Shown one piece after another: positions 19,515 to 48,693 of a stretch of 64,000 nt of DNA. The notes below the pieces were generated by a model. The model did not search any database. It was not told where the DNA came from and saw only the letters and a program-made list of their open reading frames with translations. The position numbers and the translations under genes are program-made. The DNA comes from Paraburkholderia sprentiae WSM5005 (GTDB taxonomy: Bacteria; Pseudomonadota; Gammaproteobacteria; Burkholderiales; Burkholderiaceae), in NCBI RefSeq assembly GCF_001865575.2, contig NZ_CP017562.2, positions 434,001 to 498,000 on the forward strand, in the 5' to 3' direction. Every line of letters starts with the position of its first letter. Within the stretch, counting starts at the first letter, position 1.

Positions 19515-22500
19515 GTGTCCATACGCGTCGCGTTGCATCACGTTACTCATTACCGCTACGACAGGCTGGTGACGCTGTCGCCCCAGGTCGTGCGGCTACG
19601 GCCCGCGCCGCATTGTCGGACGCCGATCCTGTCTTACTCGATGCGCGTGGAGCCCGCGAGGCACTTCATCAACTGGCAGCAGGACGCGTTCGCCAACTAT
19701 CAGGCGCGGCTCGTGTTTCCCGAGCAGACGCGCGAGTTCAAGGTCAGCGTCGATCTGATCGCCGAAATGGCCGTCTACAACCCGTTTGACTTTTTTCTGG
19801 AACCCTGCGCCGAGCAGTATCCGTTCGACTACGCGCCGGAGCTCGCGGCCGAGCTCGCGCCGTATTGCGTAAAGCGGCCGATGACGCCGCGCTTCGCCGA
19901 GTTCGTCGCGAGCATCGACCGCACGCCCGCCGGCACCGCGAACTTCCTCGTCGCGCTGAACCAGCGGGTGCAACACGAGATCCGCTACCTGATCCGGATG
20001 GAGCCCGGCGTGCAGACGCCCGAGCAAACGCTGACCAACGCGTCCGGCTCGTGCCGCGATTCCGGCTGGCTGCTCGTCGAGACGCTGCGGCAGCTCGGCT
20101 TCGCGGCGCGCTTCGTGTCGGGCTATCTACTGCAGCTCGCAGCCGACGTCAGGTCGATCGACGGCCCGAGCGGCACCGAAGTCGACTTCACCGACCTGCA
20201 CGCATGGTGCGAGGTCTATCTGCCCGGCGCGGGCTGGATCGGGCTCGACCCGACCTCGGGGCTGCTCGCGGGCGAAGGGCATATACCGGTCGCGTGCACA
20301 CCCGAGCCGGGCAGCGCGGCGCCGATCGCGGGCGCGGTCGACGAATCCGAGGTGGAGTTCGGACACACGATGTCCATCGAACGCGTGCTGGAGTCGCCGC
20401 GCGTCACCAAGCCTTACAGCGAAGCCGCGTGGCACGACGTGCTGAAGATGGGCGCGCGGGTCGACGATGAGCTCGCCGACATGGATGTGCGGCTGACCAT
20501 GGGCGGCGAGCCGACCTTCGTGTCGGTGCGGGATCGCGACGCCCCTGAATGGAACACCGATGCGCTCGGACCCACCAAGCGCAGCTACGCGGTCGCGCTG
20601 ATTGACCGGCTGCGCGAACGCTACGGCGCGAACGGTTTCCTGCATATCGGCCAGGGCAAGTGGTATCCGGGCGAGCAACTGCCACGCTGGGCGATGTCGT
20701 TGTACTGGCGTGCCGACGGCGAGCCGTGCTGGCACAACCCCGCGCTGTTCGCCGACGAACGCGAACCGGGTCGCTACACGGCCGCCGACGCGCAACGCTT
20801 CATCGCGCATCTGGCCGGGAAGCTGTCGCTCGACGCGGACTGCATTCAGCCCGGCTACGAGGACACCTGGTACTACCTGTGGCGCGAGCGTCGCTTACCG
20901 GTCAACGTCGATCCGTTCGACGCGCGCCTCGACGACGAGCTCGAACGCACGCGGCTGCGTCGCGTGTTCGACGCGGGGCTCGCGAGCCCGTCCGGCTACG
21001 TGCTGCCGATCGGCCGCGAGCGCGCCGCGCCGGGCCTCGCGCCGACGTGGATCACGGGACCCTGGTTCTTCCGCGACGGGCGCATGTACCTGATTCCGGG
21101 CGATTCGCCGATGGGCTATCGGCTGCCGCTCGATTCGCTGCCCTGGGTGTCGAAGACCGACTATCCCTATCAGCACGCGCACGATCCATTCGCGCCGCCG
21201 CAGCCATTGCGCACGGCCGCGCAGTTGCGTGTGCAATATGAAGATGGCCTCGACAGCGGGCAGATCGCCGATGAAGCGAACAGCGCGCGGCGGGCGGCCG
21301 CGCTGTCGCTGTCGGCGGCGGATGTGCTGAGCGGCATGCCGCACGGCGGCATGCTCGCGTATGCGCCGCCGCGCGGTGACGAATCGCCGCCGGCGCGAGG
21401 CGAATCGTCGAAGGACACGCTCCGTACCGCGGTGTGCGTCGAGGCGCGCGATCCGAAGCGCGCGGCGGGCCCGACAGCCGAAGCCGATTCGTTCGGCAGC
21501 GGCCGCACGCTGCTTCACGTATTCATGCCGCCGCTGACCGATCTCGACGACTACCTCGACCTGCTCGCCGCGGTCGAAGCGACGGCCGGCGAGCTGAAGA
21601 TGCAGATCGTGCTCGAAGGCTATCCGCCGCCGCGCGACCCGCGTCTGAAAGTGCTGCAGCTCACGCCGGACCCGGGCGTGATCGAAGTCAACATTCACCC
21701 GGCCGCGAACTGGAACGAACTCGTCGATCACACCGAGTACCTGTATCAGTCGGCCGCGCACAGCTATCTGAGCAGCGAGAAGTTCATGCTCGACGGGCGC
21801 CATACCGGCACCGGCGGTGGCAATCACCTGGTGCTCGGCGGCGCGACGCCGGCCGACAGCCCGTTCCTGCGCCGGCCCGATCTGCTTGCGAGCCTAATCG
21901 CGTACTGGCACAACCATCCGTCGCTGTCGTATTTGTTCTCGGGGCTCTTCATCGGACCGACGAGCCAGGCGCCGCGCATCGACGAAGCGCGCAATGATCA
22001 GGTCTATGAACTTGAAATCGCGTTCGCCGAATTGCAACGACAGGTCGATCTGCTCGGTGGCGACGACAGCGGCAAACTGCCGCCGTGGTTGATCGACCGC
22101 GCGCTGCGCAACATCCTGATCGACGTCACCGGCAACACCCATCGCGCCGAGTTCTGCATCGACAAGCTCTACTCACCCGACGGGCCGACCGGCCGTCTCG
22201 GCCTGCTGGAGCTGCGCGGCTTCGAGATGCCGCCGCACGCGCGCATGAGTCTCGTGCAGCAACTGCTGCTGCGCGCGCTGGTCGCGCGATTCTGGCGCAC
22301 GCCCTACACGCAGCGCCTGACGCGCTGGGGCACCGAACTGCACGACCGCTTCCTGCTCGGCACCTTCGTGAAGATGGATTTCGACGACGTGCTCGCCGAG
22401 CTCGGCGAAGCCGGCTTCGCATTCGATAGCGCGTGGTTCGCGCCGCACTTCGAATTCCGTTTTCCGCTCGTCGGCGAGATGACGCTGAGCGGCATCGACC

Positions 22501-23000
22501 TGACGATCCGCAATGCGCTCGAACCATGGCACGTGACGGGCGAGGAGGGCGCCAGCGGCGGCACGGTGCGCTACGTCGATTCGTCGGTCGAGCGGCTCGA
22601 GGTGCGCGTGCTGGGCTTGAACGGCAATCGTCACGTGCTGAGCGTCAACGGCGTGCCGGTGCCGCTGCAGCCGACCGGCCGTGTCGGCGAGTACGTGGCT
22701 GGCGTGCGTTTTCGCGCGTGGTCGCAATCGTCGGCGCTGCATCCGACGATCGGCGTCCACGCGCCGCTGACGTTCGACCTTGTCGACACCTGGAGCGGCC
22801 GCTCGCTCGGCGGATGCCAGTATCATGTCGCTCATCCGGGCGGGCGCACCTATCAGACTTTCCCGGTCAACGCCTACGAGGCGGAAAGCCGGCGCCGCTC
22901 GCGCTTCTTTGCGTCGGGTCATACGCCCGGGCCGCTCGCCGTGGGCGGAGCGCAGCGCAGCCTCGAGTTTCCGTTCACGCTCGACCTGCGCCACAGTTGA
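19515..23000 (+). CDS. Transglutaminase-like/DUF2126 two-domain protein (cluster A)
   Basis: This 1161-residue protein starts at GTG 19515 after GAGGAG. Residues ~1-290 are a bacterial transglutaminase-like domain (COG1305): VALHHVTHYRYDRLVTLSPQ, the catalytic Cys in NASGSCRDSGWLLVETLR (~180), then His in FTDLHAWCEVYLPGAGWIGL (~230) and DPTSG. The remaining ~850 residues are DUF2126, beginning DVRLTMGGEPTFVSV with FLHIGQGKWYPGEQLPRWA, HTGTGGGNHLVLGG and a long C-terminal beta-rich part. The transglutaminase fold here most likely cleaves or forms amide/isopeptide bonds. It opens a three-gene operon with a permuted ATP-grasp/alpha-E fusion and a second transglutaminase. No signal peptide is present, so it acts in the cytoplasm. 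Confidence 0.92.
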   Translation: MSIRVALHHVTHYRYDRLVTLSPQVVRLRPAPHCRTPILSYSMRVEPARHFINWQQDAFANYQARLVFPEQTREFKVSVDLIAEMAVYNPFDFFLEPCAEQYPFDYAPELAAELAPYCVKRPMTPRFAEFVASIDRTPAGTANFLVALNQRVQHEIRYLIRMEPGVQTPEQTLTNASGSCRDSGWLLVETLRQLGFAARFVSGYLLQLAADVRSIDGPSGTEVDFTDLHAWCEVYLPGAGWIGLDPTSGLLAGEGHIPVACTPEPGSAAPIAGAVDESEVEFGHTMSIERVLESPRVTKPYSEAAWHDVLKMGARVDDELADMDVRLTMGGEPTFVSVRDRDAPEWNTDALGPTKRSYAVALIDRLRERYGANGFLHIGQGKWYPGEQLPRWAMSLYWRADGEPCWHNPALFADEREPGRYTAADAQRFIAHLAGKLSLDADCIQPGYEDTWYYLWRERRLPVNVDPFDARLDDELERTRLRRVFDAGLASPSGYVLPIGRERAAPGLAPTWITGPWFFRDGRMYLIPGDSPMGYRLPLDSLPWVSKTDYPYQHAHDPFAPPQPLRTAAQLRVQYEDGLDSGQIADEANSARRAAALSLSAADVLSGMPHGGMLAYAPPRGDESPPARGESSKDTLRTAVCVEARDPKRAAGPTAEADSFGSGRTLLHVFMPPLTDLDDYLDLLAAVEATAGELKMQIVLEGYPPPRDPRLKVLQLTPDPGVIEVNIHPAANWNELVDHTEYLYQSAAHSYLSSEKFMLDGRHTGTGGGNHLVLGGATPADSPFLRRPDLLASLIAYWHNHPSLSYLFSGLFIGPTSQAPRIDEARNDQVYELEIAFAELQRQVDLLGGDDSGKLPPWLIDRALRNILIDVTGNTHRAEFCIDKLYSPDGPTGRLGLLELRGFEMPPHARMSLVQQLLLRALVARFWRTPYTQRLTRWGTELHDRFLLGTFVKMDFDDVLAELGEAGFAFDSAWFAPHFEFRFPLVGEMTLSGIDLTIRNALEPWHVTGEEGASGGTVRYVDSSVERLEVRVLGLNGNRHVLSVNGVPVPLQPTGRVGEYVAGVRFRAWSQSSALHPTIGVHAPLTFDLVDTWSGRSLGGCQYHVAHPGGRTYQTFPVNAYEAESRRRSRFFASGHTPGPLAVGGAQRSLEFPFTLDLRHS

Positions 23001-23029
23001 AAAACATGCATCACTGACACCACACGACC

Positions 23030-25660
23030 TTGGCCTTTCAATCGACTTTGCCCTTCGAAGCGTCCGCGATGCCTGCGGACGCTTCGTCCCTGTTGCGGTT
23101 GCTGCCGGGTCATGACGGACATTGGGACGAGCTGCGCGATACGTCGGGCGCGCTGCGCGAGCCGTGGCGGCAGTTCTTCGCGCTGCTCGACGAAGGCGGC
23201 GTGGCCCGGCTCGCGGACCATCATGCGTCGATCGCGCGGCAGATCCGCGACAACGACATCAGCTACAACGTCTACGCGGACAACGGCAAGGCGCGGCCGT
23301 GGGCGCTCGACCTGCTGCCGTTCCTGATCAGCGAAGCCGAGTGGGCGCACATCGAGCGCGGCGTCGCGCAGCGCGCGCATCTGCTCAACGCGATCGTCGC
23401 CGATATCTACGGGCCGCAGACGCTGCTCGAACATGGGCAACTGCCGCCCGCGCTGGTGTTCGGCCATCCGGGCTATCTGCGCTCGGTGAAGGGCTTCACG
23501 CCGCCCGGCGGTCAATATCTGCAGGTCGTCGCGCTCGATCTCGCGCGCACACCGGGCGGCGAGTGGAACGTGATCGCACACCGCACGGAGGCGCCGTCGG
23601 GTCTCGGCTACGCGCTCGAGAACCGCCTGATCGTGTCGACGCTGCTCGCCGAGCCGTTCCGCTCGCTGCGCGTGCGCAGGCTCGCGCCGCTCTATTCGCA
23701 ACTCATCGCGACGCTCGTGCGGGCCGCGCAAGCGACGATGCGCACCGAGCAGCGCGCTGACGCGTCGCCGCATATCGCACTGCTCACGCCGGGGCCGTAC
23801 AGCGAAACCTATTTCGAGCACGTGTTTCTCGCACGCTATCTCGGCGTCACGCTGGTCGAAGGCAAGGACCTGACCGTGCGCGGCGATCGGCTCTATCTGA
23901 AGACATTGGCCGGGCTCGAACGCGTGCACGTCGTGCTGCGCCGTCTCGACGACGCGTTCTGCGACCCGGTCGAGTTGCGCGCCGATTCGACGATCGGTGT
24001 GCCGGGGCTGTTGCAGGTGATGCGCGCGGGCAACGTGATCGTGTCGAACGTGCCGGGTTCGGGGTTCGCCGAGTCGCCGCCGTTGCACGGTTTCATGCCG
24101 GGTATTGCCGAAGCGTTGCTCGGCGAAGAGCTGGTGCTGCCCGGCGTGCCGACCTGGTGGTGTGGCGAACAGGCCGCGCGCGAGCATGCGTTCGCGCATC
24201 TCGACGACGCCTTCATCGTGCCGACATGGCCGCTCGCGGGACGCGACGCGCCGCCCGGCATCGAGGGGGGCAGGCAGCCGCTCGCGGCATGGCGCGAGCG
24301 CATCGACGCGTCGCCCGACGCGTTCACGATCCAGCAGGAGCAGCGCTTTTCCTGCACGCCGCGCTACGAGGCGGGTACGATCGGCGGGCGGCCCTCGGTG
24401 CTGCGCGTGTATGCGATCGCCGACGTCAACGGCGGCTGGCACGTGATGCCGGGCGGTTTCACGCGCATGGCCGCCGAGCGGCAGACCACGGTATCGATGC
24501 AGCACGGCGGCAGCAGCGTCGATGCGTGGGTGCTGTCGAGCCAGCCAAGCTCGACGTTCACGCTGTTGCCTTCGCCGATGCAGCCCGCCGACCTTACGCG
24601 CAAGCATCGCACCGTATCGAGCCGCGCCGCGGAGAACCTGTTCTGGGCGGGCCGCTATGGCGAGCGCGCGGAAAACAACGTGCGGCTGCTGCGGCTGATT
24701 CTCGGCTCGCTCGAAGGCAACGACGCCGACGCGATGTTCGCGACGCTGGTCGAACTCGCGACATGGTGCGGCCTCGTGCAGCCGGGCGATATCACGTCGC
24801 CGCACGGGCCGGCATCGCCGCGGACCTTCGAGCGCGCGCTCGTCGCGAATCTCGGCGACAGCGCGGGCAGTGTCAGTATCAGCCAGAACCTCAATTGCCA
24901 GGCGCGCGCGAACGGCGAAGTGCGCGGGCGTTTGTCGAACGATCATTGGCGCATGATTCTCGCGGCGCGCAACGACTTTCAGGACGCGTTGCAGGTCTTG
25001 CTGCCAGCCGTGGGCGTGGGCAACGGCGGCGCGGGTGCCCCGAGCGGCGGCGGTGCGTTCGATCGCTACGACCGCGTGACGCTTGCGAATGCGCTCGAGC
25101 ATCTGTCGGTGCAGCTATCGGCGATCAGCGGCGCGCAGGGCGACCGCATGACGCGCGATGAAGCGTGGCGGCTGCTGTTCGTCGGGCGTCATATCGAACG
25201 CGTCGCGACGATGGCCGCGTTCATGCGCGGCGTCGCCGCGAACGGGCAGCTTGCGACACCGGCAGGCTTCGATCTGCTGCTGCAAATGTTCGACAGTACG
25301 CTCACGTATCGTTCGCTGTATCCCGGGCGTTTCGAAGTGCCCGCGCTGCTCGACCTGCTCGTGATCGAGCCGCACAATCCGCGCGGCATTTATGGCGTGT
25401 ACGAGCGGCTGCGCAACAAGCTGGACGAAATCGCCATCGCGGCGGGCAGCCTGCGGCATCGGCCGTTCGCGGAGCTGCTGCCGGGCGTCGACTTGTTGCC
25501 GTCGCTCGAATCGCTGTGCGAGGTCGACGAACACGGATCGTATGCCAGGCTGATTGCGCTATGCGATCAGATCGGCGGTTTCGCCAACGCGGCCGCGCAT
25601 GAGATCAGCGCGCGCTATTTCAGTCACGCGACCACGGCCGCCTCCCAGGTGTGGGTATGA
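23030..25660 (+). CDS. Circularly permuted ATP-grasp (type 2) fused to an alpha-E domain (cluster A)
   Basis: This 876-residue protein joins a circularly permuted ATP-grasp domain (residues ~30-530, COG2308) to an alpha-E domain (~540-870, COG2307). ATP-grasp segments include IRDNDISYNVYADNG, LLTPGPYSETYFEHVFLARY, GVTLVEGKDLTVR, DSTIGVPGLLQVMRAGN and the glutamate/Asn-rich end near VSMQHGGSS. The alpha-E part has ENLFWAGRYGERAENNVRLL. The same two domains are separate genes at 44388 and 45977. ATP-grasp enzymes ligate carboxylates to amines; here a peptide-type ligation is predicted. The start codon is doubtful: TTG 23030 gives the full frame without a good Shine-Dalgarno, and ATG 23069 is an alternative. 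It overlaps the next gene by four bases. Confidence 0.9.
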   Translation: MAFQSTLPFEASAMPADASSLLRLLPGHDGHWDELRDTSGALREPWRQFFALLDEGGVARLADHHASIARQIRDNDISYNVYADNGKARPWALDLLPFLISEAEWAHIERGVAQRAHLLNAIVADIYGPQTLLEHGQLPPALVFGHPGYLRSVKGFTPPGGQYLQVVALDLARTPGGEWNVIAHRTEAPSGLGYALENRLIVSTLLAEPFRSLRVRRLAPLYSQLIATLVRAAQATMRTEQRADASPHIALLTPGPYSETYFEHVFLARYLGVTLVEGKDLTVRGDRLYLKTLAGLERVHVVLRRLDDAFCDPVELRADSTIGVPGLLQVMRAGNVIVSNVPGSGFAESPPLHGFMPGIAEALLGEELVLPGVPTWWCGEQAAREHAFAHLDDAFIVPTWPLAGRDAPPGIEGGRQPLAAWRERIDASPDAFTIQQEQRFSCTPRYEAGTIGGRPSVLRVYAIADVNGGWHVMPGGFTRMAAERQTTVSMQHGGSSVDAWVLSSQPSSTFTLLPSPMQPADLTRKHRTVSSRAAENLFWAGRYGERAENNVRLLRLILGSLEGNDADAMFATLVELATWCGLVQPGDITSPHGPASPRTFERALVANLGDSAGSVSISQNLNCQARANGEVRGRLSNDHWRMILAARNDFQDALQVLLPAVGVGNGGAGAPSGGGAFDRYDRVTLANALEHLSVQLSAISGAQGDRMTRDEAWRLLFVGRHIERVATMAAFMRGVAANGQLATPAGFDLLLQMFDSTLTYRSLYPGRFEVPALLDLLVIEPHNPRGIYGVYERLRNKLDEIAIAAGSLRHRPFAELLPGVDLLPSLESLCEVDEHGSYARLIALCDQIGGFANAAAHEISARYFSHATTAASQVWV

Positions 25661-26547
25661 AGAACGCGCCGACGGTGCTGTCCGTTTCGCATCGCACTAC
25701 CTACCATTATTCGACGTATGTCGAAACCGCGCAGCATCTGGCGACCATCCGGCCGCTCGCGTGTCCGTGGCAGCGTGTGATCTCGCGAAGCGAACGGATC
25801 GAGCCGGAGCCGTCGTACCGGCACAGCCGCATCGACGCATTCGGCAACGACGTGCTGTACTTCGCGCTCGATGTACCGCACGAGCGTCTGCAGCTCGTCA
25901 GCGAAACCTCGGTCGCGCTGACGCCGCGCTGGACCGAGTTCGACGCCGAGGGCACTCCGGCCTGGGAGACGGTGGCCGAGACGCTGCGGTTTCGCGTGGG
26001 CGGCGCGTTCCGTGCCGAGGCGGAGTATTGCTTCGCTTCGCCGAACATTGCGCTGCGGCCGTCGCTGCGCGCGTACGCGTTGCCGAGCTTCACGCCCGGT
26101 CGGCCGCTCGTCGCCGGCGCGATCGATCTGATGCATCGCATTCACGAGGACTTCACGTACAAGCCGTCGGCGACGCTGTTCGATACGCCGGCCGAACGCG
26201 CGTTTGAACTGAAGAGCGGCGTGTGTCAGGACTTTGCGCAGGTGATGATCGGCTGCTTGCGCTCGCTTGGTTTGCCCGCGCGCTACGTCAGCGGCTATCT
26301 GCGCAACGATCCGCCGCCAGGCCAGCCGCGCCTGATCGGCGCGGATGCATCGCATGCGTGGGTGTCGGTGCATTGTCCGGCGAGTGGCTGGATCGATCTC
26401 GATCCGACCAATGACGTGCTTGCCGATCTCGATCACGTGACGCTCGCGATTGGGCGCGATTACAGCGATGTATCGTTGCTGCGTGGGACGATTCTCGGCG
26501 GCGGCGCGCATCGGATGGAAGTGGCGGTGACGGTGCTGGAATTGTGA
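25657..26547 (+). CDS. Transglutaminase-like cysteine peptidase (cluster A)
   Basis: The 296-residue product starts at ATG 25657, overlapping the previous stop as ATGA, so translation is coupled. It has the bacterial transglutaminase N-terminal region (VSHRTTYHYSTYVETAQHLA) and core domain with catalytic Cys in ELKSGVCQDFAQVMIGC, then LPARYVSGYLRND, His in ADASHAWVSVHCPASGWIDL and DPTND. It has no signal peptide. Together with the preceding two genes it makes a complete set parallel to cluster B. It probably processes the amide product made by the ATP-grasp partner; the natural substrate is unknown. Confidence 0.93.
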   Translation: MKNAPTVLSVSHRTTYHYSTYVETAQHLATIRPLACPWQRVISRSERIEPEPSYRHSRIDAFGNDVLYFALDVPHERLQLVSETSVALTPRWTEFDAEGTPAWETVAETLRFRVGGAFRAEAEYCFASPNIALRPSLRAYALPSFTPGRPLVAGAIDLMHRIHEDFTYKPSATLFDTPAERAFELKSGVCQDFAQVMIGCLRSLGLPARYVSGYLRNDPPPGQPRLIGADASHAWVSVHCPASGWIDLDPTNDVLADLDHVTLAIGRDYSDVSLLRGTILGGGAHRMEVAVTVLEL

Positions 26548-26772
26548 TAGCGGGCGCGGTTCGTTGCCGGTGTTCGAGTGGTCATCGTGCGCGCCCGCGC
26601 GCCTTGCAAGCGAGTGTCGGGCGATTCACGACAAAAACCGGGACTCGCGAAGAACGCGTATCCAAGGCCAGATGACCTCTAACGCAGCTATCGAAGTTCA
26701 GACAGAAGCGCGCATACAGGCCGTTTTTACTTCTCACTGACAACAGGCAGCAACCTGTCGCAACACCCGGAA

Positions 26773-26801
26773 AGGCGCGAATTCTCGCGCTTTTTTGTTT
26801 T
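26773..26801 (+). terminator. Intrinsic terminator that is also the intron insertion site
   Basis: GCGCGA at 26775-26780 and TCGCGC at 26785-26790 close an ATTC loop, followed by TTTTTTGTTTT. The group II intron remnant begins at the very next base. Confidence 0.8.
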
Positions 26802-27627: not shown

Positions 27628-27638
27628 GCACACGAATA

Positions 27639-38209: not shown

Positions 38210-38218
38210 GAGTCCAAC

Positions 38219-41080: not shown

Positions 41081-41103
41081 CGCCCGTACAAGCCGCGCGC
41101 CGC

Positions 41104-41541
41104 TTACTCTGGCATCTTCCTGAACGACACCGCAATCCGGTTCCAGCCGTTGATCGCCACGATCAGCAGCGTCAGGTCGCTGATTTCCTGCTCGCTGAAA
41201 TGCGGCTTCACCGCTTCCCATACCGTATCCGGTACGCGTGTTTGCGCCACCAGCGTCACCGCCTCGGTCCATTCCAGTGCCGCGCGTTCGCGCGCAGTGA
41301 AAAACGGCGCTTCGCGCCACGCGGCCACCGTCGCCAGACGCCGGTCGGTTTCACCGTGCTTGCGCGCGTCGCTCACGTGCATGTCGAGGCAGAACGCGCA
41401 GCCGTTCAGTTGCGACGCGCGAATCCGCACCAGTTCTGCGAGCGTCTTGTCGATCGTGCTTTTGCCGATGGTTTCCTCGAGCGCGAGCATCGCGCGGGTG
41501 CCGCTCGGGCAGGCCTTGTAGAAGTCCAGACGTGCTTGCAT
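41104..41541 (-). CDS. AhpD-like carboxymuconolactone decarboxylase family protein
   Basis: This 145-residue protein starts at ATG 41541 behind AGGAGG and shows the AhpD-like fold with the redox motif NGCAFCLDMHVSDAR (CxxC-x3-H), preceded by AELVRIRASQL and followed by LTLLIVAINGWNRIAVSF. Family members are peroxidase partners, or decarboxylases that use the CxxC-H site. It is divergent from a MocR regulator, which likely controls it. In-frame sequence extends much further upstream but would run into the MocR gene and lacks a better start. Confidence 0.9.
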   Translation of the reverse strand: MQARLDFYKACPSGTRAMLALEETIGKSTIDKTLAELVRIRASQLNGCAFCLDMHVSDARKHGETDRRLATVAAWREAPFFTARERAALEWTEAVTLVAQTRVPDTVWEAVKPHFSEQEISDLTLLIVAINGWNRIAVSFRKMPE

Positions 41542-41657
41542 CAGAGTGTCCTCCTGAGTGTCGGGGGAGCCCGGATGGGCGTCCATGGAGGTAAGCTTAC
41601 GTTCGTCATTGGTCGTTCGAAATAACCATTTCGCGTTTATTTGAGGTAGCCACCTGA

Positions 41658-43145
41658 ATGGACATTCACATTGCGGTCGAAGGCCATCACGATCTGTCCG
41701 GACAGATTTATCGGCAATTGCGCGCGGGCATTCTCGAAGGGCGTCTTGCTGGCGGCACGCGTCTGCCGTCCACGCGCGATCTCGCGATGCAGCTCGGCGT
41801 GTCGCGCAAAACCACGCTCGACGTGTTCGAGCGGCTGCTGTCCGAAGGTTATCTGAACGCCCGCGCCGGTTCGGGCACCTTCGTCGCCGACGGGCTCGAA
41901 CGGCTGCCGGCCGAGCGCTCCGCCCACGCGCGCGCGGTGGCTCGTTCGCGCGAGCGGGCCGCCGCGCAAGCGAACGCCGCCGCGCGCGCACAGCCACTGT
42001 GGGAGCGCATGCCCGAGCGTCTGCCGTTGCCGCGGCCGTCGGTGCCGTCACCGCTCGACTTCATCGGCGGCGCGACCGACAAAACGCTGTTTCCGTTCGA
42101 AGTCTGGCGCCGCTGCGTGAATCACGCGCTGCGCGGCCAGGCGCGCAGCCCCGGCACTTATCGCGAGGCCGCAGGCGACCCACAGTTGCGGCTCGCGATC
42201 TCACGCTACCTCGCCTTCAGCCGCGCGGTGGCGAGCAACTGGGAAGACGTGATCGTCACGCAGGGCGCGCAGCACGCGCTCGATCTGATGGCGCGCATCA
42301 CGCTGAGACCCGGCGAAATCGCGGCCATCGAAGACCCGGGCTACCCACCCGCGCATGCATGCTTCACGGTGACGGGCGCGCGCGTGGTGCCGGTGCCGGT
42401 CGATCGCGAAGGGCTGGTCGTCGGCAAGCTGCCGGACAAGGCGCGGCTCGTCTACGTGACGCCTTCGCATCAGTTTCCGCTCGGGATGCCGATGAGCCTG
42501 GAGCGTCGCGTCGAACTGCTCGAATGGGCGCAAAAGCGCGGCGCGGTCATCATCGAGGACGACTATGACTGCGAGTACCGTTTCGAAGGCCGGCCGATGG
42601 AGCCGCTGAAGAGCCTCGATCGGGCCGGCCTCGTCGCATACGTCGGCACCTTTTCGAAGACGATCTTCCCGGAGCTGCGAATCGGCTATCTGGTACCGCC
42701 GGCGTCGTTGCACGGCCCGCTGCTGAAGGCGCGGCAGATCGCCGATTGTCACGGCTGCACGCTGACGCAAACAGCGCTCGCGTCGTTCATGCTCAACGGC
42801 GACTTCGCACGCCATCTGCGGCGCATGCACAAGGCTTACGCGGCGCGCCGCGCGATGCTGCTCGAGCATTTGCAAGGCGATCTCGCGCGCTGGTTCGAAC
42901 CGATCGTGCCGACCGCCGGCATCCATCTGGCGGCGCGATTGAAGGGGCCGTTGGCGGCGCTCGGCGAAGAGGCGCTCGTCGCCGCCGCGCGTGAAGCGTC
43001 GATCGGCCTTTATGGACTCGCGCCATTTCACCATCGCGTCACACCGCAGCCTGGGCTCATCTTCGGCTATGGCAGCATCGCGGCCGAACATATCGACGCG
43101 GCGCTGACGACGCTCGCCGGTATCCTGCCGCGCATCGCGCGCTGA
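41658..43145 (+). CDS. MocR-family (GntR/aminotransferase-like) transcriptional regulator 2
   Basis: The 495-residue product has an N-terminal GntR helix-turn-helix (SGQIYRQLRAGILEGRLAGG, TRLPSTRDLAMQLGVSRKTT, LDVFERLLSEGYLNARAGSG) and an aminotransferase-like domain with VIVTQGAQHALDLMARI, IEDPGYPPAH, VIIEDDYDCEYRF and the PLP lysine in AYVGTFSKTIFPELRIGYLV. This is a PdxR-like MocR. The divergent gene encodes an AhpD-like protein and is the likely target. The spacer of 116 bp contains an imperfect GGT-N-ACC dyad (around 41609-41632), which is weak. Confidence 0.94.
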   Translation: MDIHIAVEGHHDLSGQIYRQLRAGILEGRLAGGTRLPSTRDLAMQLGVSRKTTLDVFERLLSEGYLNARAGSGTFVADGLERLPAERSAHARAVARSRERAAAQANAAARAQPLWERMPERLPLPRPSVPSPLDFIGGATDKTLFPFEVWRRCVNHALRGQARSPGTYREAAGDPQLRLAISRYLAFSRAVASNWEDVIVTQGAQHALDLMARITLRPGEIAAIEDPGYPPAHACFTVTGARVVPVPVDREGLVVGKLPDKARLVYVTPSHQFPLGMPMSLERRVELLEWAQKRGAVIIEDDYDCEYRFEGRPMEPLKSLDRAGLVAYVGTFSKTIFPELRIGYLVPPASLHGPLLKARQIADCHGCTLTQTALASFMLNGDFARHLRRMHKAYAARRAMLLEHLQGDLARWFEPIVPTAGIHLAARLKGPLAALGEEALVAAAREASIGLYGLAPFHHRVTPQPGLIFGYGSIAAEHIDAALTTLAGILPRIAR

Positions 43146-43522
43146 AACGAAGCTCGCCGCAAGCGAGGCGTAGGCGTCGCCAAAAGTTGGAGCGCGCGCG
43201 TTGCTTGACGCGTCAAACGAAGAAAATGCCCTGATTCAAGGGGCGAAAACGTCGGGCCGCCCCGCGGCAACCACCTCGAAACCGCAGCCGAAACGAACCG
43301 TAACGTGCGTTACGCGTCGATATTAAAGACCTTGCCGAGCGCGTTTTAGCCGCTAAAACAGGGACTAAAATGCGTTGGACTGTTGGCGCCGCGCAAAAAA
43401 CTTCATCGCAATACATAAAAGAGTCGCGCAAATCGCTTTAGCGCTTGTAGAATCCGGCGTTGAAGCGTGCGCATACGGTGTGCGCTTCGAGCAATTCACT
43501 GACCACAACAGGTAGGAGAAAC
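43146..43522. promoter_or_regulatory. HU upstream region with three palindromes
   Basis: This 377-bp region holds TTGACGCGTCAA (43205-43216), CGTAACG-TG-CGTTACG (43299-43314) and the 17-bp GTTTTAGC-C-GCTAAAAC (43343-43359, with another ACTAAAA half-site downstream at 43364). The last lies about 165 bp before the HU start. They look like separate operators for unidentified regulators. No gene is seen. Confidence 0.6.
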
Positions 43523-43975
43523 ATGCCGACTTCCGCAAAAAAGGTGGCCAAGAAGGCTGCTGCCCCGGTACCGACCAAGAAGGTTGCTGCAAAGAAAGTT
43601 CCTGCGAAGAAAGCCGTCGCAGCCAAGAAGGTCGCCGTGAAGGCGTCTGGCGCACCGTCGCCGATCAAGGACACCTTCACGAAGGCCTCGTTGGCAGCTC
43701 ACATCGCTGAACGTGCTGCAGTTGAACCGAAGACCGCCAAGGCTGTGCTGGCCGCGCTCGAAGACACGATCCTCGGCACGGTGCATAAGAAGGGCGCTGG
43801 CGAATTCACGCTGTCGGGTCTGCTGAAGATCGTCGTGCAGTCTGTGCCGGCGAAGAAGAAGCGCTTCGGCAAGGACCCGTTCACGGGTGAAGAGCGCTGG
43901 TTCCCGGCCAAGCCGGCAAGCGTGCGCATCAAGGCACGCGCGCTGAAGAAGCTGAAGGATGCAGCCGCTGCCTAA
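43523..43975 (+). CDS. HU-family nucleoid protein with a lysine/alanine-rich N-terminal tail
   Basis: This 150-residue protein begins with a ~45-residue tail of KKVAKKAAAP / KKVAAKKVPAKK repeats resembling histone H1 C-terminal tails, then an HU domain: SPIKDTFTKASLAAHIAERA, LEDTILGTVHKKGAGEFTLS, and a beta arm-like VQSVPAKKKRFGKDPFTGEE plus KPASVRIKARALKKLKDA. Long-tailed HU proteins are known in Burkholderia and Bordetella. They bind DNA without sequence specificity and compact the nucleoid. AGGAGA precedes the ATG and a strong terminator follows, so the gene is monocistronic. The upstream region has three palindromes. Confidence 0.93.
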   Translation: MPTSAKKVAKKAAAPVPTKKVAAKKVPAKKAVAAKKVAVKASGAPSPIKDTFTKASLAAHIAERAAVEPKTAKAVLAALEDTILGTVHKKGAGEFTLSGLLKIVVQSVPAKKKRFGKDPFTGEERWFPAKPASVRIKARALKKLKDAAAA

Positions 43976-44387
43976 GCGCGTTGCTCGCATCGATCAGGCG
44001 TCGCATGGCGCTGTGATGTTTAACCATGCCTGACGTTTGAGTGCTTGAGTTAGCGTCTGTTCGCAGGCCATCGAAGTCCCCGTGGATGAAAATCCACGGG
44101 GACTTTTTTATGCGCACGCTTCGTTAGTGCTCGTCAAATCCATTCGCGCAAACGCCATCGCGCCTCTCATAGTGTGCTCCCTGATGGCGCGCGCGCACCT
44201 GACTGGCGCATCATGATGCACGACAGTACGGTCAAGACACTCGGGCGCGCTTGCGGATGCGCCGTTATCGTGCACGTCCACGCGCTCTGTCACGACCAAT
44301 TCAATGGCATAACGCTTGCTTGATCGAAGGTCGATTACCGAATGCGCAGCGCATTCGCCTTCTATTGACAACAAGACTGGGGCTGAC
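43976..44387. other. Region between HU and the ATP-grasp gene
   Basis: Apart from the HU terminator (44074-44109) this 412-bp region has no convincing gene. A 93-codon frame on the minus strand (44389-44108) has no ribosome-binding site or recognisable domain and overlaps the ATP-grasp start. The promoter of cluster B should lie here. Confidence 0.5.
44074..44109 (+). terminator. Strong intrinsic terminator after HU
   Basis: AGTCCCCGTGGAT-GAAA-ATCCACGGGGACT is a long perfect stem followed by TTTTTTA. Confidence 0.93.
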
Positions 44388-45797
44388 ATGCGATGCTACG
44401 ACGAGATGCGCCATCACGCCGATGGCGTACGGCCGCATTACGCGCACTTTGAGCGCTGGTTGGACCGACAGGGCGATGAAGCGATCGCACGCAAGCGCGC
44501 GGAAGCGGACCTGCTGTTCCGGCGCGTCGGCATCACCTTCGCGGTGAACGGCGACCTGTCCGGCACCGAGCGGCTGATTCCCTTCGATCTGATTCCGCGC
44601 ATCATTCCGCGCGGCGAATGGCAAGCGCTCGAAGCCGGTTTGCGGCAGCGCGTGCAGGCTCTCAACCTGTTCATCCACGACGTCTATCACGATCGCAACA
44701 TCGTGCGCGCGGGCATCGTGCCGGCCGAGCAGGTCTATACCAATGCGCAGTATCGCCCGGAGATGCAGGGCGTCGACGTGCCGCTCGGTGTTTACGCGCA
44801 TATCGCGGGCGTCGACGTGGTGCGCGCCGGCGACGAAGGTGAGTTCTACGTACTCGAAGACAATCTGCGTGTGCCGTCGGGCGTGTCGTACATGCTCGAA
44901 AACCGCAAGATGATGATGCGGCTCTTCCCCGAGCTGTTCGTGCAGAACCGCATCGCGCCGGTCGCGCATTATCCCGATCTGCTGCTCGATACGCTGCGCT
45001 CGGTCGCGCCCGAGGGCGTCGACGATCCGGTCGTGGTGGTGCTGACGCCGGGCATGTACAACTCCGCGTATTTCGAGCATACGTTCCTCGCCCAGCAGAT
45101 GGGCGTCGAACTCGTCGAAGGCAAGGATCTGTTCGTCGACGACAACTACGTGTTCATGCGCACCACGCAGGGACCGAAGCGCGTCGACGTGATCTACCGG
45201 CGCGTCGACGACGACTTTCTCGATCCGCTCGCGTTTCGCCCGGACTCCGCGCTCGGCGTACCGGGTCTGCTCACTGCGTATCGCGCCGGCCGCGTCGCGC
45301 TCGCGAACGCGATGGGCACCGGCATCGCAGACGACAAATCGATCTACCCGTACGTGCCCGAGATGATCGAGTTTTATCTCGGCGAAAAGCCGATTTTGAA
45401 CAACGTGCCGACCTATCAGTGCCGCAAGCCGGAGGATCTCGCGTATACGCTCGCGAATCTGCCGGAGTTGGTGGTCAAGGAAGTGCACGGCGCGGGCGGC
45501 TACGGGATGCTCGTCGGTCCGGCGTCGACGAAGGCGGAAATCGAGGCCTTCCGCGAGCGGCTGATCGCGCGGCCGGCTGGCTATATCGCGCAACCTACGC
45601 TGGCGCTATCCGCGTGTCCGACCTTCGTCGAGTCGGGCATCGCGCCGCGGCATATCGACCTGCGGCCGTTCGTGCTGTCGGGCAAGACCACCACGATGGT
45701 GGCGGGCGGGCTCACGCGCGTCGCGTTGCAGCAGGGCTCGCTCGTCGTCAATTCATCGCAGGGAGGCGGGACCAAGGACACCTGGATGGTCGACTGA
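44388..45797 (+). CDS. Circularly permuted ATP-grasp protein, stand-alone (cluster B)
   Basis: This 469-residue protein is COG2308 with the same segment order as the cluster A fusion: ITFAVNGDLSGTERLIPFDL, VLEDNLRVPSGVSYMLENRK, VVVLTPGMYNSAYFEHTFLA, GVELVEGKDLFVDDNYVFM, DSALGVPGLLTAYRAGRVAL and VVKEVHGAGGYGMLVGP, ending SSQGGGTKDTWMVD. ATG 44388 gives the expected N-terminus (MRCYDEMRHHADGVRPHYAH). The protein ligates a carboxylate to an amine using ATP, probably on a peptide. The next gene is the matching alpha-E protein, 179 bp downstream, then a transglutaminase and the Anbu protease. Confidence 0.93.
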   Translation: MRCYDEMRHHADGVRPHYAHFERWLDRQGDEAIARKRAEADLLFRRVGITFAVNGDLSGTERLIPFDLIPRIIPRGEWQALEAGLRQRVQALNLFIHDVYHDRNIVRAGIVPAEQVYTNAQYRPEMQGVDVPLGVYAHIAGVDVVRAGDEGEFYVLEDNLRVPSGVSYMLENRKMMMRLFPELFVQNRIAPVAHYPDLLLDTLRSVAPEGVDDPVVVVLTPGMYNSAYFEHTFLAQQMGVELVEGKDLFVDDNYVFMRTTQGPKRVDVIYRRVDDDFLDPLAFRPDSALGVPGLLTAYRAGRVALANAMGTGIADDKSIYPYVPEMIEFYLGEKPILNNVPTYQCRKPEDLAYTLANLPELVVKEVHGAGGYGMLVGPASTKAEIEAFRERLIARPAGYIAQPTLALSACPTFVESGIAPRHIDLRPFVLSGKTTTMVAGGLTRVALQQGSLVVNSSQGGGTKDTWMVD

Positions 45798-45976
45798 TGC
45801 GGTTGCCGCCGCTCGTCCCGCTTTGCTCGTCATCGATCAACGCAGGGCGGCGCTCGCAATCTGATGCGCTGCAAGCGGCACGCAATGCGCCGCTGGCGCT
45901 CAACGGATAACCAGCGCGGACTTTCGTCGTCGACGAAGGTCTCGCGCGCTCAGAATCACAGACATGGAACGCCGTC

Positions 45977-46927
45977 ATGCTTAGCCGAACCGCCGATCAC
46001 CTCTTCTGGATGGCCCGCTATATGGAGCGCGCGGAGAACACCGCCCGCATGCTCGACATCAACCTGAAGGCGCAGCTGCTGCCGCAGACGCCCGAACAGG
46101 AGGCGCGCGCGCAGCGCTCGGTGCTGCGCATCTCCGAGCTAGAAAGCGCGTTCGCGCAGCGCTACGACGAACCGACGCACGACCATGTGCTCGACTTCAT
46201 GGTTGCCGACGCGAGCAATCCGTCGAGCATTCATTCGTGCCTGCAGGCCGCGCGTGAAAACGCGCGCGCGGTACGCGGCACGCTGACGACCGAGTGGTGG
46301 GAAACCATCAACGACACGTGGCTCGAATTCAACGAGCGGCTCTCGAGCGGCCAGGCGGCCAGCAATCCGGGCTCGTTGTTCGAGTGGGTCAAGTTCCGCT
46401 CGCACCTGTCGCGCGGCGTGACGATCGGCACCGCGCTGCAGGACGACGCGTTTCTGTTCACGCAGTTGGGTACGTATCTGGAGCGCGCCGACAACACCGC
46501 GCGGATTCTCGATGTGCGTTTCGCGAACGTCGAGCCGAATTCGCGCGACGCCGCGCGGCAGCTCGAAGACTTCTATTACTGGACCTCGATCCTGAGTTCG
46601 GTGTCGGCGCTCGAGATCTATCGCAAGGTGTATCGCGACGTGGTGACGCCCGCGCGCGTCGTCGAGCTGATGATCCTCAATCAGCAGATGCCGCGCTCGC
46701 TGCTCGCGTCGCTCGACGGCGTGTGCACCAATCTCGCGATGCTGCGCACGCCGGGCTCGAACCAGTGCGAGCGCTTCGCCGGCAAGCTGCGCGCCGAACT
46801 GCTGTATGCCGATATCCGGCAGATTTTCGAAGGGGGGTTGCACGCCTATCTGACGCAGTTCCTCGCTCGCGTCTTCGAGCTGGGGAATCTGGTGGCGCGC
46901 ACTTATCTGATGCTGCCCGTGGCCTGA
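45977..46927 (+). CDS. Alpha-E domain protein (cluster B)
   Basis: This 316-residue all-helical protein has the alpha-E N-terminus MLSRTADHLFWMARYMERAE, NTARMLDINLKAQLLPQ and later GVTIGTALQDDAFLFTQLGTY, LERADNTARILDVRF and SRDAARQLEDFYYWTSILSS. The domain has no known catalytic site; it always accompanies permuted ATP-grasp proteins and is thought to act as their partner or acceptor. The ATG follows GGAACGCC, a weak ribosome-binding site, and the stop is 12 bp before the transglutaminase gene. Confidence 0.93.
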   Translation: MLSRTADHLFWMARYMERAENTARMLDINLKAQLLPQTPEQEARAQRSVLRISELESAFAQRYDEPTHDHVLDFMVADASNPSSIHSCLQAARENARAVRGTLTTEWWETINDTWLEFNERLSSGQAASNPGSLFEWVKFRSHLSRGVTIGTALQDDAFLFTQLGTYLERADNTARILDVRFANVEPNSRDAARQLEDFYYWTSILSSVSALEIYRKVYRDVVTPARVVELMILNQQMPRSLLASLDGVCTNLAMLRTPGSNQCERFAGKLRAELLYADIRQIFEGGLHAYLTQFLARVFELGNLVARTYLMLPVA

Positions 46928-46939
46928 CGGAGTTTTCTC

Positions 46940-47740
46940 ATGTATCTGACGATCCGCCACGACACCTCTTATCGCTATGAAGCGACGGTTCACTATTCGA
47001 TCCAGCAGTTGCGCCTGACGCCCGCGAGCGGCGCTGCGCAGACCGTGCGGCGCTGGAACATCGATGCGCCGGGCAAGCTCGATGCCACGCTCGACGCATA
47101 CGGCAACGTGCTGCATACGCTCGTCATCAACAAGCCGCACCGCGAGATTCATCTGCGCGTGTCGGGCGAGGTGGACACGCTGCCGCTCATCGACGGCGTG
47201 CTGCGCGATCCGCCCGGCCCGGTTCCGCTCGAGCATTTCACCTGCGCGACGCGCCTGACCGAAGCCGACGGCGCGATTCGCGAACTGGCCGAGTCGGTGC
47301 CGACTTTGGCGAGTCCGGCATGCCTGATTGCGCTGTCCGAGCAGATCGTGCAGCGCGTGCAATACCGGCCCGGGGTGACCGAAGTCACGAGCACGGCCGC
47401 CGAGGCGCTCGCGCTCGGCAACGGCGTGTGCCAGGACCATGCGCATCTGATGCTCGCATGCTGCCGCGCGCGCGGCGTGCCGGCGCGCTATGTGAGCGGT
47501 TATATCGAACCCGGTGACGTGCCCCATGCGGCGAGTCATGCGTGGGTCGATGTCTGGCTCGAAGACACAGGCTGGATTTCGATCGACGTGACGCACGCCG
47601 GGTTTGCCAGCGAGATCTACTGCCGGCTAGCGGTCGCGCGCGACTATGAGGCGGCGGCGCCGGTGCGCGGACGGCGCATCGGCGGGCTCGAAGAGGAGCT
47701 CGACGTGAAGGTGACGGTCAGCACCCAAATGTCGCAGTAG
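46940..47740 (+). CDS. Transglutaminase-like cysteine peptidase (cluster B)
   Basis: This 266-residue protein has the N-terminal segment MYLTIRHDTSYRYEATVHYS and core motifs LGNGVCQDHAHLMLACCRA (catalytic Cys), VPARYVSGYIEPGD, ASHAWVDVWLEDTGWISIDV (His) and THAG (Asp position shifted). It is an intracellular transglutaminase-fold peptidase. It is closely related to the cluster A gene at 25657. The short 12-bp gap to the alpha-E gene shows co-transcription, and Anbu follows 80 bp later. Confidence 0.93.
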   Translation: MYLTIRHDTSYRYEATVHYSIQQLRLTPASGAAQTVRRWNIDAPGKLDATLDAYGNVLHTLVINKPHREIHLRVSGEVDTLPLIDGVLRDPPGPVPLEHFTCATRLTEADGAIRELAESVPTLASPACLIALSEQIVQRVQYRPGVTEVTSTAAEALALGNGVCQDHAHLMLACCRARGVPARYVSGYIEPGDVPHAASHAWVDVWLEDTGWISIDVTHAGFASEIYCRLAVARDYEAAAPVRGRRIGGLEEELDVKVTVSTQMSQ

Positions 47741-47820
47741 TAGCGTGGCGGACACACGGGTAAAAGGCGCCTCTTCGCCGCATTACAATAGCCCGTACCT
47801 TTGCCTCCCGCGGAATTCTT

Positions 47821-48693
47821 ATGACTTACTGCGTAGCGATGGCCGTCGACGACGGCCTCGTATTTCTGTCCGACACGCGTACCAACGCGGGCGTCGATCA
47901 CATCAGTACCGCGCGCAAGATGTCGGTGTTCGAGCAACCCGGCGAGCGCCTGCTGGTGCTGCTTGCCGCCGGCAATCTGTCGATCACGCAGGCGGTGCTG
48001 CACGAGCTGTCCGAGCCCGCCGATGCCAGCGAGGCCACGCTGTGGAGCGTGCCGACGATGGCCGACGCCGCGCGCGTGGTCGGCAGCGCGGTGCGCCGCG
48101 TGCATGAGCGCGAGGCCGAGACGCTGCAGAAGTTCGGCGTCGACTTCAACTGCAGCTTCATTCTTGGCGGGCAGATCGGCGGCAACCGGATGCGCCTTTT
48201 CATGATCTACGCGGCGGGCAACTTCATCGAGGCGTCGGCCGTGAATCCCTATTTCCAGATCGGCGAGGCGAAGTATGGCAAGCCGATCATCGACCGGGTG
48301 TTGACGCCGTCCACGCCGCTCGACGAAGCCGCAAAGTGCGCGCTGATCTCGATGGACTCGACGCTGCGCTCGAACCTGTCAGTGGGCTTGCCGCTCGATC
48401 TGCTCGTCTACGAGAAGGATGCGCTGCGCGTCACGCGGTTCGTGTCGATCGACCGTGACAATGCGTACTTCGACATGATTCACCGCACGTGGGGCGAGCG
48501 TCTGCGCCAGGTGTTCGGCGAGATTCCCGATCCCGACTGGCAGCCGCCGGCCGATGCGCCGTCGCTGCAGTCGGAACGCGCGCTGGTGCTGCATCGCGCG
48601 CCGGTCGGCGCCGATGGCCACGAGCACGAGCACGACGCGTGGCCCGCGCAGATACTTGCGCAGTCCGACAAGGACAAGGCGCAGCGCCGCTAG
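47821..48693 (+). CDS. Anbu/proteasome-type peptidase (ancestral beta-subunit)
   Basis: This 290-residue protein opens MTYCVAMAVDDGLVFLSDTR, so Thr2 becomes the N-terminal nucleophile after Met removal, with Asp19 and Lys34-like (STARKMSVF) positions matching the beta-subunit active site. It continues with LVLLAAGNLSITQAVL, LGGQIGGNRMRLFMIYAAGN and KYGKPIIDRVL. A C-terminal tail is His/Glu-rich (EHEHD). Anbu forms a self-compartmentalising ring or helix distinct from HslV and the 20S proteasome. Its place at the end of the ATP-grasp/alpha-E/transglutaminase operon is a known genomic association and suggests it degrades or matures the operon's product. Confidence 0.93.
   Translation: MTYCVAMAVDDGLVFLSDTRTNAGVDHISTARKMSVFEQPGERLLVLLAAGNLSITQAVLHELSEPADASEATLWSVPTMADAARVVGSAVRRVHEREAETLQKFGVDFNCSFILGGQIGGNRMRLFMIYAAGNFIEASAVNPYFQIGEAKYGKPIIDRVLTPSTPLDEAAKCALISMDSTLRSNLSVGLPLDLLVYEKDALRVTRFVSIDRDNAYFDMIHRTWGERLRQVFGEIPDPDWQPPADAPSLQSERALVLHRAPVGADGHEHEHDAWPAQILAQSDKDKAQRR

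Follow-up and report, generated by a model that had tools for sequence, protein, structure and literature searches.

A stretch of the Paraburkholderia sprentiae WSM5005 genome (GCF_001865575.2, NZ_CP017562.2, positions 434,001–498,000, forward strand) carries two gene sets with permuted ATP-grasp, alpha-E and transglutaminase domains. The initial annotation took these clusters, A and B, to be two separate systems, and the question is whether they are, or whether they form one. Both clusters are real: domain searches placed seven genes in the 64,000-nt stretch analyzed (the window, to which coordinates refer), with strong Pfam matches or, for Anbu, PDB matches.

19515–23000, plus strand: A1, Bact_transglu_N, Transglut_core and DUF2126 (glutamine-synthetase/GCS-like amidoligase) domains (Pfam PF08379, PF01841, PF09899; DUF2126 1314 bits)
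23030–25660, plus strand: A2, CP_ATPgrasp_2 (circularly permuted ATP-grasp, active-site residues lost) fused to Alpha-E (Pfam PF14403/PF04174/PF04168; 452 and 171 bits)
25651–26547, plus strand: A3, bacterial transglutaminase-like protein with Bact_transglu_N and Transglut_core (Pfam PF08379, PF01841)
44388–45797, plus strand: B1, CP_ATPgrasp_2 with all conserved active-site residues (Pfam, 560 bits; PDB 3n6x, E 4.9e-220)
45977–46927, plus strand: B2, Alpha-E protein (Pfam PF04168, 315 bits; AlphaFold2 pLDDT 89.8)
46940–47740, plus strand: B3, bacterial transglutaminase-like protein (Pfam)
47821–48693, plus strand: B4, Anbu, an Ntn-hydrolase of the proteasome/HslV superfamily (PDB 5loy, E 2.5e-95; 5nyw, 5nyj and others)

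The coupled starts ascribed to cluster A held for the fusion and transglutaminase genes, which overlap by 10 nt; the DUF2126 and fusion genes are spaced by 29 nt if the fusion starts at TTG 23030. Spacing in cluster B is looser, with ∼180 nt separating the ATP-grasp and alpha-E genes. Across the source genome, alpha-E and CP_ATPgrasp_2 were each matched twice (E ≤ 0.001), always within the two clusters. The initial annotation had considered two substrates or two compartments of one pathway; as to the latter, no obvious export signal was seen by eye at the translated N-termini of the A and B proteins.

Alignment of the corresponding domains of A and B gave 31% identity for ATP-grasp, 24% for alpha-E, and 29 and 25% for the transglutaminases. 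In the tree, the fused and unfused ATP-grasp domains separated with a support of 1.0, also when the active-site columns were masked, and sequences from Acidobacteriota and Actinomycetota followed the same split. A and B therefore share ancestry domain by domain, and the alignments and tree indicate that they are ancient paralogues.

In enzymes of the glutathione synthetase/glutathionylspermidine synthetase fold, the E-x-N and Gly-loop residues have a role. B1 has the E-x-N motif, the Lys and the Gly loop. A2 has A-x-R where E-x-N is expected, and its Lys and Gly-rich loop (VVK..GGYG) are missing. We compared 435 ATP-grasps, assigned as fused (263) or unfused (172) by tail length (>250 aa) without reference to the motif; since 241 of these came from the window and near relatives, counts after thinning at 70% are also given. 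The E-D-N, Lys, GGYG, Asp and Asn residues were invariant in 172/172 unfused domains, and 263/263 fused domains had replacements at three positions: Asn in E-x-N, Asp in DLRP and Asn in VNSS. None of the 263 fused domains had an E-x-N motif with both E and N, and after thinning the split was the same (motif kept in 15/15 unfused and 0/42 fused). The fused family mostly has A/S/G-x-R in place of E-x-N, mostly with Q or E two residues further. This fused set holds one locus each from Actinomycetota and Acidobacteriota; Cyanobacteria lay outside the sequence-level sample.

The model of the fused domain (pLDDT 84.3) retained the ATP-grasp fold, with 3n6x as best match (E 2.8e-32), followed by eukaryotic glutathione synthetases; the fold is thus common to A2 and the glutathione synthetase/glutathionylspermidine synthetase structures (2hgs, 2io7, 3n6x), but A2 is without their E-x-N and Gly-loop residues. 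The domain is under purifying selection (dN/dS 0.12–0.30). With fold kept and selection maintained, the fused ATP-grasp of the A2 family is best read as a conserved pseudoenzyme. Cluster A is not, as judged from its sequence, a duplicate of cluster B chemistry, because its ATP-grasp has lost the active site.

The DUF2126 domain of A1 is complete (1–826 of 826 positions covered, 1314 bits). Eight of nine chosen columns were conserved in 99–101 of 101 sequences, and the ninth, an Ala, varies; the conserved polar residues are those to be expected in a GS/GCS-like ligase and may be catalytic, and DUF2126 is the likely ligase of cluster A. The transglutaminase Cys/His/Asp triad is conserved in A1 and A3 (Cys intact in 102/103 and 143/144).

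Cluster B matches the Anbu operon as described in PMC6376114 and PMC5666114: the content and order of its four genes (ATP-grasp, alpha-E, transglutaminase, Anbu) agree, the ATP-grasp active site is intact, and Anbu carries Thr1, Asp17 and Lys32. No difference was found in the genes themselves; here, a DUF2126-type partner cluster lies 18 kb off. The Pfam Proteasome model scored B4 slightly under its cut-off (21.1 vs. 22.4 bits). Thr1, Asp17 and Lys32 are present in its translation, and Thr1, Asp17 and Lys32/33 in 11/11 aligned Anbu proteins. According to PMC6376114, a Yersinia ATP-grasp relative of B1 released phosphate from ATP, the Yersinia Anbu-operon proteins did not co-purify, and no peptidase activity was measured for Anbu.

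We then surveyed 249 genomes. DUF2126 was found in 71, all with alpha-E, and in none of the 117 genomes without alpha-E; 61 of the 132 alpha-E genomes had no DUF2126 match. The screen for the fusion covered 73 of these 132 (those with at least two matches, besides the window's own, plus G198) and then the remaining 58, with G206 included again. Nine genomes of the second part with long or read-through frames were read directly, as were G206, G143 and G210, the last two also belonging to the 58; in all nine, ATP-grasp, with LEDN intact, and alpha-E are encoded by different genes. Reading of the first-screen rows, with the window's own genome added, gave 72 fusion genomes. None of the 132 had the fusion only. 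Unfused ATP-grasp accompanied the fusion in 71 of 72; in the 72nd (G206) a contig breaks off at a piece of unfused alpha-E, and the corresponding ATP-grasp would fall beyond that break. The fusion and DUF2126 are not strictly tied, because the fusion occurs without detected DUF2126 in 9/72 genomes and four DUF2126 genomes (G094, G122, G134, G268) clearly have no fusion. In four others (G107, G143, G155, G210) a contig end interrupts the DUF2126 neighborhood, and in G143 and G210 a fused-type ATP-grasp fragment adjoins DUF2126 there.

Within the genus, 30 of 35 genomes have both fused and unfused alpha-E, one (G008) as a remnant, and 29 of 35 have a DUF2126 match, one being the remnant. The fusion is also present in P. 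xenovorans LB400. The pairing of A and B as a peculiarity of the source genome is thereby ruled out. Shared ancestry and co-occurrence in relatives, the absence of which the initial annotation had named as counting against its interpretation, were thus both found.

Parts of A and B also occur together in one operon, in 26 of the 104 DUF2126 loci read, although two sets of twenty regions were chosen for gene arrangement and such frequencies do not represent a random sample. The types seen were ATP-grasp–alpha-E–(transglutaminase)–DUF2126–fusion–transglutaminase(–Anbu) and ATP-grasp–alpha-E–Anbu–DUF2126, with labels that rely on the LEDN motif plus score and so are no independent test of that motif. 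A combined operon was also present as an IncFII plasmid cassette. That Anbu belongs only with B, as first proposed, is true of the source genome; elsewhere Anbu directly adjoins DUF2126 (L077–L080, L205) or shares its gene run (L065).

Upstream of the first gene of both clusters lies a predicted −24/−12 promoter with conserved spacing, accompanied by a candidate NtrC site:

19353–19369, plus strand: NtrC-like inverted repeat upstream of A, TGCGC-N7-GTGCA, 9/10 (weak on its own)
19462–19477, plus strand: predicted sigma54 (−24/−12) promoter of A, CGGCATAAAGCTTGCT (motif scan and conservation in relatives)
44194–44210, plus strand: NtrC-like inverted repeat upstream of B, CGCAC-N7-GCGCA, 8/10 (read from upstream sequence)
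44305–44320, plus strand: predicted sigma54 (−24/−12) promoter of B, TGGCATAACGCTTGCT (motif scan and conservation in relatives)

For A1, GTG 19515 was preferred as the start over the upstream TTG 19473, because the latter falls within the predicted −12 element. A sigma54-type site preceded the unfused ATP-grasp gene in 60/78 cases (control, 153/10,000). Excluding L068 and L082, which have no DUF2126, DUF2126 was the first gene at 78 loci and internal, after the ATP-grasp gene, at 26; a site was present at 61/78 of the former and 0/26 of the latter. The 17 first genes without a site include Acidobacteriota and Rhizobiaceae loci, and the promoter conserved at both clusters is mainly a feature of Burkholderiales. 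The motif count alone was rejected as evidence: there was no excess in the 64-kb window (11 sites vs. 14.2 expected), and genome-wide (≤2 mismatches) 34 sites were found vs. 21 for the reversed pattern. The weight of the predicted promoters is in their position and their conservation, mostly in Burkholderiales. Three other near-identical sites in the genome had no evident nitrogen gene nearby in the ORF lists. NtrC-like repeats scoring at least 9/10 were found in 22/55 B and 8/72 A upstream regions and in 49/4000 control windows, the rows being related rather than independent; a score of at least 8 was common in the control (485/4000).

PMC5491218 lists B. cenocepacia I35_5080-5083 (BCAM1233-1236) as NtrC/sigma54-dependent targets. 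This nitrogen-regulated cluster combines DUF404/407 (ATP-grasp), DUF403 (alpha-E), a transglutaminase and a large transglutaminase protein; it is one operon there, whereas two operons with two similar promoters are present here. In another B. cenocepacia strain (L246) the I35_5080-5083 gene order is followed by the fusion and a transglutaminase, from which I35_5083 would be the DUF2126 protein. In P. putida, PMC8050072 reports nitrogen-limited induction of the B-type operon, with PP_2685 and PP_2688 transcripts both up on nitrate; in reporter assays the PP_2688 promoter responded 3.7-fold, but the PP_2685 (Anbu) promoter was nitrogen-agnostic. The P. phymatum rpoN literature, in the parts available, names none of the A or B genes. 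A and B are apparently switched on together under nitrogen shortage.

The mixed operons, the common sigma54-type promoter and the loss of the A2 active site do not fit the view of two separate systems. A and B are therefore best interpreted as two arms of a single NtrC/sigma54-controlled amide-bond system of nitrogen starvation, to which we give a probability of about 0.55. The analysis itself establishes the parts, their ancestry, the loss or retention of active sites, the operon combinations and the promoter conservation; the nitrogen dependence is taken from the published B. cenocepacia and P. putida data. Arm B would pair a working permuted ATP-grasp ligase (acid and ATP to acyl phosphate to amide) with alpha-E and add two further enzymes, a papain-type amidase/transamidase and Anbu, the Ntn-hydrolase. 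In arm A, ligation would fall to another kind of enzyme, the DUF2126 domain of glutamine-synthetase/GCS type, to which a transglutaminase domain is joined; a second transglutaminase and the ATP-grasp/alpha-E fusion would complete this arm. The pseudoenzyme half of that fusion may dock or regulate the ligases and present its alpha-E domain. Under nitrogen scarcity, the system would most likely attach amino acids or short peptides to proteins or carrier molecules and take them off again, with trimming left to the transglutaminases and Anbu. Tentatively, we further propose that (i) the pseudo-ATP-grasp half is ancient and bacteria-wide and has become fixed as a regulatory or docking module, functional only when an active permuted ATP-grasp is present; and (ii) this half and DUF2126 together make up the second arm of one nitrogen-starvation amide-tagging system, with Anbu as the releasing hydrolase.

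A and B could instead be independent pathways with different substrates, DUF2126 making one product and ATP-grasp another, under a common regulator for nitrogen scavenging, with the operon fusions reflecting co-regulation only. ATP-grasp and alpha-E genes stand alone in many genomes (the 61/132 without a DUF2126 match), and A and B, in most cases within the genus, form distinct transcription units under promoters of their own. We consider this unlikely: A-type genes always came with unfused partners (alpha-E in 71/71 DUF2126 genomes, unfused ATP-grasp in 71/72 fusion genomes, with G206 cut by a contig end), and the parts mix in single operons, including Anbu beside DUF2126. A recent duplication within this genome, as the ∼18 kb distance and identical orientation of A and B might suggest, has virtually no probability and is ruled out by the 24–31% identity and by the fully supported split that distant phyla follow.

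Two further alternatives concern cluster A. Cluster A might be a decaying, useless paralogue; indeed, in one relative (L208) most of A was lost by deletion and A is therefore dispensable there. This is very improbable, since the other A active sites are intact, the A genes have dN/dS values of 0.09–0.37, the promoter is conserved and 29/35 genomes of the genus, remnant included, keep a DUF2126 match. Catalysis by the fused ATP-grasp through rewired metal or nucleotide binding, or of a non-ligase reaction, is improbable. The family conserves residues of its own under purifying selection, the Lys is retained in 53/263 domains (18/42 after thinning) and one (L202) retains the first Glu; against this, the three key residues are replaced in every fused domain, and most of these domains also have a deleted or substituted Gly loop.

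The two-arm reading has partial counterparts. Iyer and colleagues in 2009 reportedly predicted a system of permuted ATP-grasp, permuted GS-like ligase (DUF2126), Ntn-hydrolase and alpha-E proteins, and proposed one peptide-tagging or peptide-synthesis system with both ligase types, of which nitrogen control is not known to have been a part. Its domain set is the same as that of A and B together. M. tuberculosis Rv2566, as described in PMC2588565, joins a transglutaminase-like domain to a carboxylate-amine ligase, the architecture of the large A1 protein. The RimK/RimB and RloABC systems (PMC12239564, in part) likewise have an ATP-grasp ligase and a protease in one pathway, RloABC also with a transglutaminase-type protein; they differ in a RimK-related ATP-grasp and a retropepsin in place of Anbu, and the excerpt mentions neither alpha-E nor DUF2126.

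Databases name relatives of A2 'circularly permuted type 2 ATP-grasp protein' despite the lost active site. The reading of A and B as two arms names the likely live ligases (B1 and DUF2126) and the likely pseudoenzyme (A2), and hence predicts ATP turnover for the former but none for the latter. Nitrogen limitation would be the condition of interest, and the genes of A and B would have to be considered jointly.

Pfam domain matches placed the two clusters at the positions, and with the gene content, that the initial annotation had named:

19515-26547, forward strand: cluster A, transglutaminase-DUF2126, ATP-grasp/alpha-E fusion, transglutaminase
44388-48693, forward strand: cluster B, free-standing permuted ATP-grasp, alpha-E, transglutaminase, Anbu

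The fusion and transglutaminase genes that end cluster A overlap by 10 nt. The best protein matches came from Paraburkholderia. Solved Anbu structures were matched by the cluster B Anbu, and PDB 3n6x is a close relative of the B ATP-grasp and a distant relative of the fused A ATP-grasp. Across the five contigs of the host genome (7.84 Mb), A and B held the only alpha-E and CP_ATPgrasp_2 matches at E <= 0.001. A putative zinc metallopeptidase with a zinc ribbon (PF15887, PF10005; 18148-19284, reverse strand) lies directly upstream of A in divergent orientation. Downstream of B there is a C4 antisense RNA (Rfam RF01695, 65.7 bits; 52635-52727, forward strand), a phage/plasmid-type immunity RNA. 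The block at 56001-58000 has a GC skew of 0.267, almost 4 times that of any other 2-kb block in the window.

The domains of A and B in this genome share only 24-31% identity. A tree was built from 59 ATP-grasp domains (the two window proteins and a set thinned at 70% identity); in it, 43 fused domains (joined to alpha-E) and 16 unfused ones separated completely with support 1.0, and the split persisted when the active-site columns were masked. The fused side took in one Acidobacteriota and one Actinomycetota sequence. By this low identity and complete split, A and B are ancient paralogues.

We then aligned 435 ATP-grasp domains, assigned as fused or unfused by C-terminal tail length. The unfused domains were uniform, with LEDN (E, D and N), VVK (Lys), the GGYG loop, DLRP (Asp) and VNSS (Asn) present in all 172; residues of these motifs bind metal and ATP in the ATP-grasp superfamily. 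No fused domain (0/263) had the E-x-N Asn, the DLRP Asp or the VNSS Asn, and 53 retained the Lys. The Glu was replaced by A, S or G in 249/263 and the Asn by R in 247/263; one exception retains Glu and has His in place of Asn (locus L202), and another has Asp in place of Glu (L177). The pattern was unchanged in the thinned set (42 fused, 15 unfused), with Lys present in 18 of the 42 fused sequences. The predicted model of the fused domain (pLDDT 84.3) matched 3n6x best (2.8e-32) and then eukaryotic glutathione synthetases. The dN/dS values were 0.12-0.30 for the fused domain (eight comparisons) vs. 0.04-0.08 for the unfused one (seven). The fused domain is thus (i) an ATP-grasp whose active site is gone; (ii) one that retains the ATP-grasp fold; and (iii) one under purifying selection. 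Elsewhere in A the active sites are preserved. The Cys of A-type transglutaminases was present in 102/103 and 143/144 sequences, and eight of nine chosen DUF2126 columns were conserved in 99-101 of 101. The Anbu Thr, Asp and Lys were present in 11/11, and the B-type transglutaminase was more variable in a small set (Cys 10/11, His 8/11). The simplest reading of these sequences is that in A the DUF2126 protein would be the ligase and the fused ATP-grasp its non-catalytic partner.

The two cluster types co-occur in related genomes. When 58 relatives were taken together with the genome of the window (59 in all), DUF2126 was found in 38 and alpha-E in 43. Within the genus (35 genomes), 29 had a DUF2126 match and 30 had both fused and unfused alpha-E, one of them (G008) as a remnant. 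In 18/35, a fused-type set shared a contig with a free-standing unfused one at a distance of ~65 kb or less; this count takes in G008 and a genome with no DUF2126 match (G028). Of 249 Pseudomonadota genomes, the window's own included, 132 had alpha-E. DUF2126 was found in 71, each of them also an alpha-E genome (Fisher p ~1e-25, kinship ignored). The fusion was present in 72 of the 132 alpha-E genomes, with contig-end fragments in two more, and 71 of these 72 showed an unfused ATP-grasp; in the remaining one (G206) a contig end falls inside the unfused alpha-E. No fusion-only genome was found among the 58 searched that had a single alpha-E match. The fusion occurred without a DUF2126 match in 9/72 genomes, including G206, whose completeness is only 74%. 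In four genomes with DUF2126 the fusion is clearly missing, and another four are interrupted by contig ends. In G008 (locus L208, 5408-7681, reverse strand) cluster A has collapsed, with pieces of transglutaminase, DUF2126, fused ATP-grasp and alpha-E in one 758-aa open frame and an alpha-E remnant adjoining.

Parts of A and B also occur together in fetched regions of relatives. One merged order is ATP-grasp, alpha-E, an optional transglutaminase, DUF2126, fusion and transglutaminase, followed once by Anbu (L065). A second, without the fusion, is ATP-grasp, alpha-E, Anbu and DUF2126 (L077, L078, L080), with Anbu last in L079. Elsewhere, as in L073 and L127 among others, the two sets are neighbours in divergent or convergent orientation. 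In 26 of 104 DUF2126 loci, some of which were picked for their gene arrangement, a same-strand unfused ATP-grasp gene was located no more than 6.5 kb upstream of DUF2126. In L112, L113, L117 and L123 no alpha-E was detected between the upstream ATP-grasp and DUF2126. The proposed restriction of Anbu to B holds in this genome, but the merged operons that contain Anbu make it a trait of this genome and not of the system. An Enterobacter roggenkampii IncFII plasmid (L247) carries a five-gene form (ATP-grasp, alpha-E, DUF2126, fusion, transglutaminase) close to an arsC gene and an IS6 transposase, and the combined set may thus move as a unit.

Both clusters are preceded by a predicted sigma54-type promoter with GG/GC spacing:

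19462-19477, upstream of A: CGGCATAAAGCTTGCT
44305-44320, upstream of B: TGGCATAACGCTTGCT

Sigma54 motifs were not in excess within the window (11 found vs. 14.2 expected), and the case for these predicted promoters rests on conservation, not on motif count. At a score of at least 10 of 11, a site was called ahead of 60/78 unfused ATP-grasp genes (thinned 19/32) and upstream of DUF2126 in 61/78 loci where it is the first gene (thinned 24/40). No site preceded DUF2126 when it lay behind a same-strand unfused ATP-grasp gene (0/26; thinned 0/16). The difference between first and internal DUF2126 genes was significant (Fisher p 1.9e-13 for all, 1.5e-5 thinned), and 153 of 10,000 random 320-nt windows reached the score. 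Since Acidobacteriota and Rhizobiaceae loci are among the 17 first-gene misses, predicted sigma54 control is, as far as tested, chiefly a Burkholderiales feature. The upstream regions of B relatives showed an enrichment of NtrC-like repeats; for A the enrichment was weak.

Published data give independent support for shared regulation of A and B (PMC5491218; PMC8050072). In Burkholderia cenocepacia H111, a cluster of DUF404/DUF407, DUF403, transglutaminase-like and large transglutaminase-like genes is a common NtrC/sigma54 target, with changes of -8.2, -9.4, -9.4 and -6.0 fold, in that order, in the ntrC mutant (PMC5491218). Another B. cenocepacia strain (L246) has the same order, followed by the fusion and a transglutaminase. 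In Pseudomonas putida on nitrate, PP_2685 (Anbu) and PP_2688 (ATP-grasp) transcripts were up; in reporters, nitrogen limitation induced the PP_2688 promoter 3.7-fold, and the PP_2685 promoter was nitrogen-agnostic (PMC8050072). In a Yersinia B-type operon, the ATP-grasp frees phosphate from ATP, the Anbu showed no peptidase activity and the proteins did not co-purify (PMC6376114).

In the part of the literature that the searches covered, which does not include the 2009 work of Iyer et al., neither the consistent loss of active-site residues from fused ATP-grasps nor the promoter logic was found. The 2009 work reportedly predicted the domain set as a peptide-tagging or peptide-synthesis system, so the set itself is already known and is not new with this locus. 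A and B may serve two substrates, as the initial annotation had suggested; sequences inspected by eye lent no support to its other proposal, two compartments. Under nitrogen starvation, the unfused ATP-grasp of B and DUF2126 would make amide bonds, the transglutaminases and Anbu would cleave or transfer these bonds, and the fusion of pseudo-ATP-grasp and alpha-E would organise or regulate the set.
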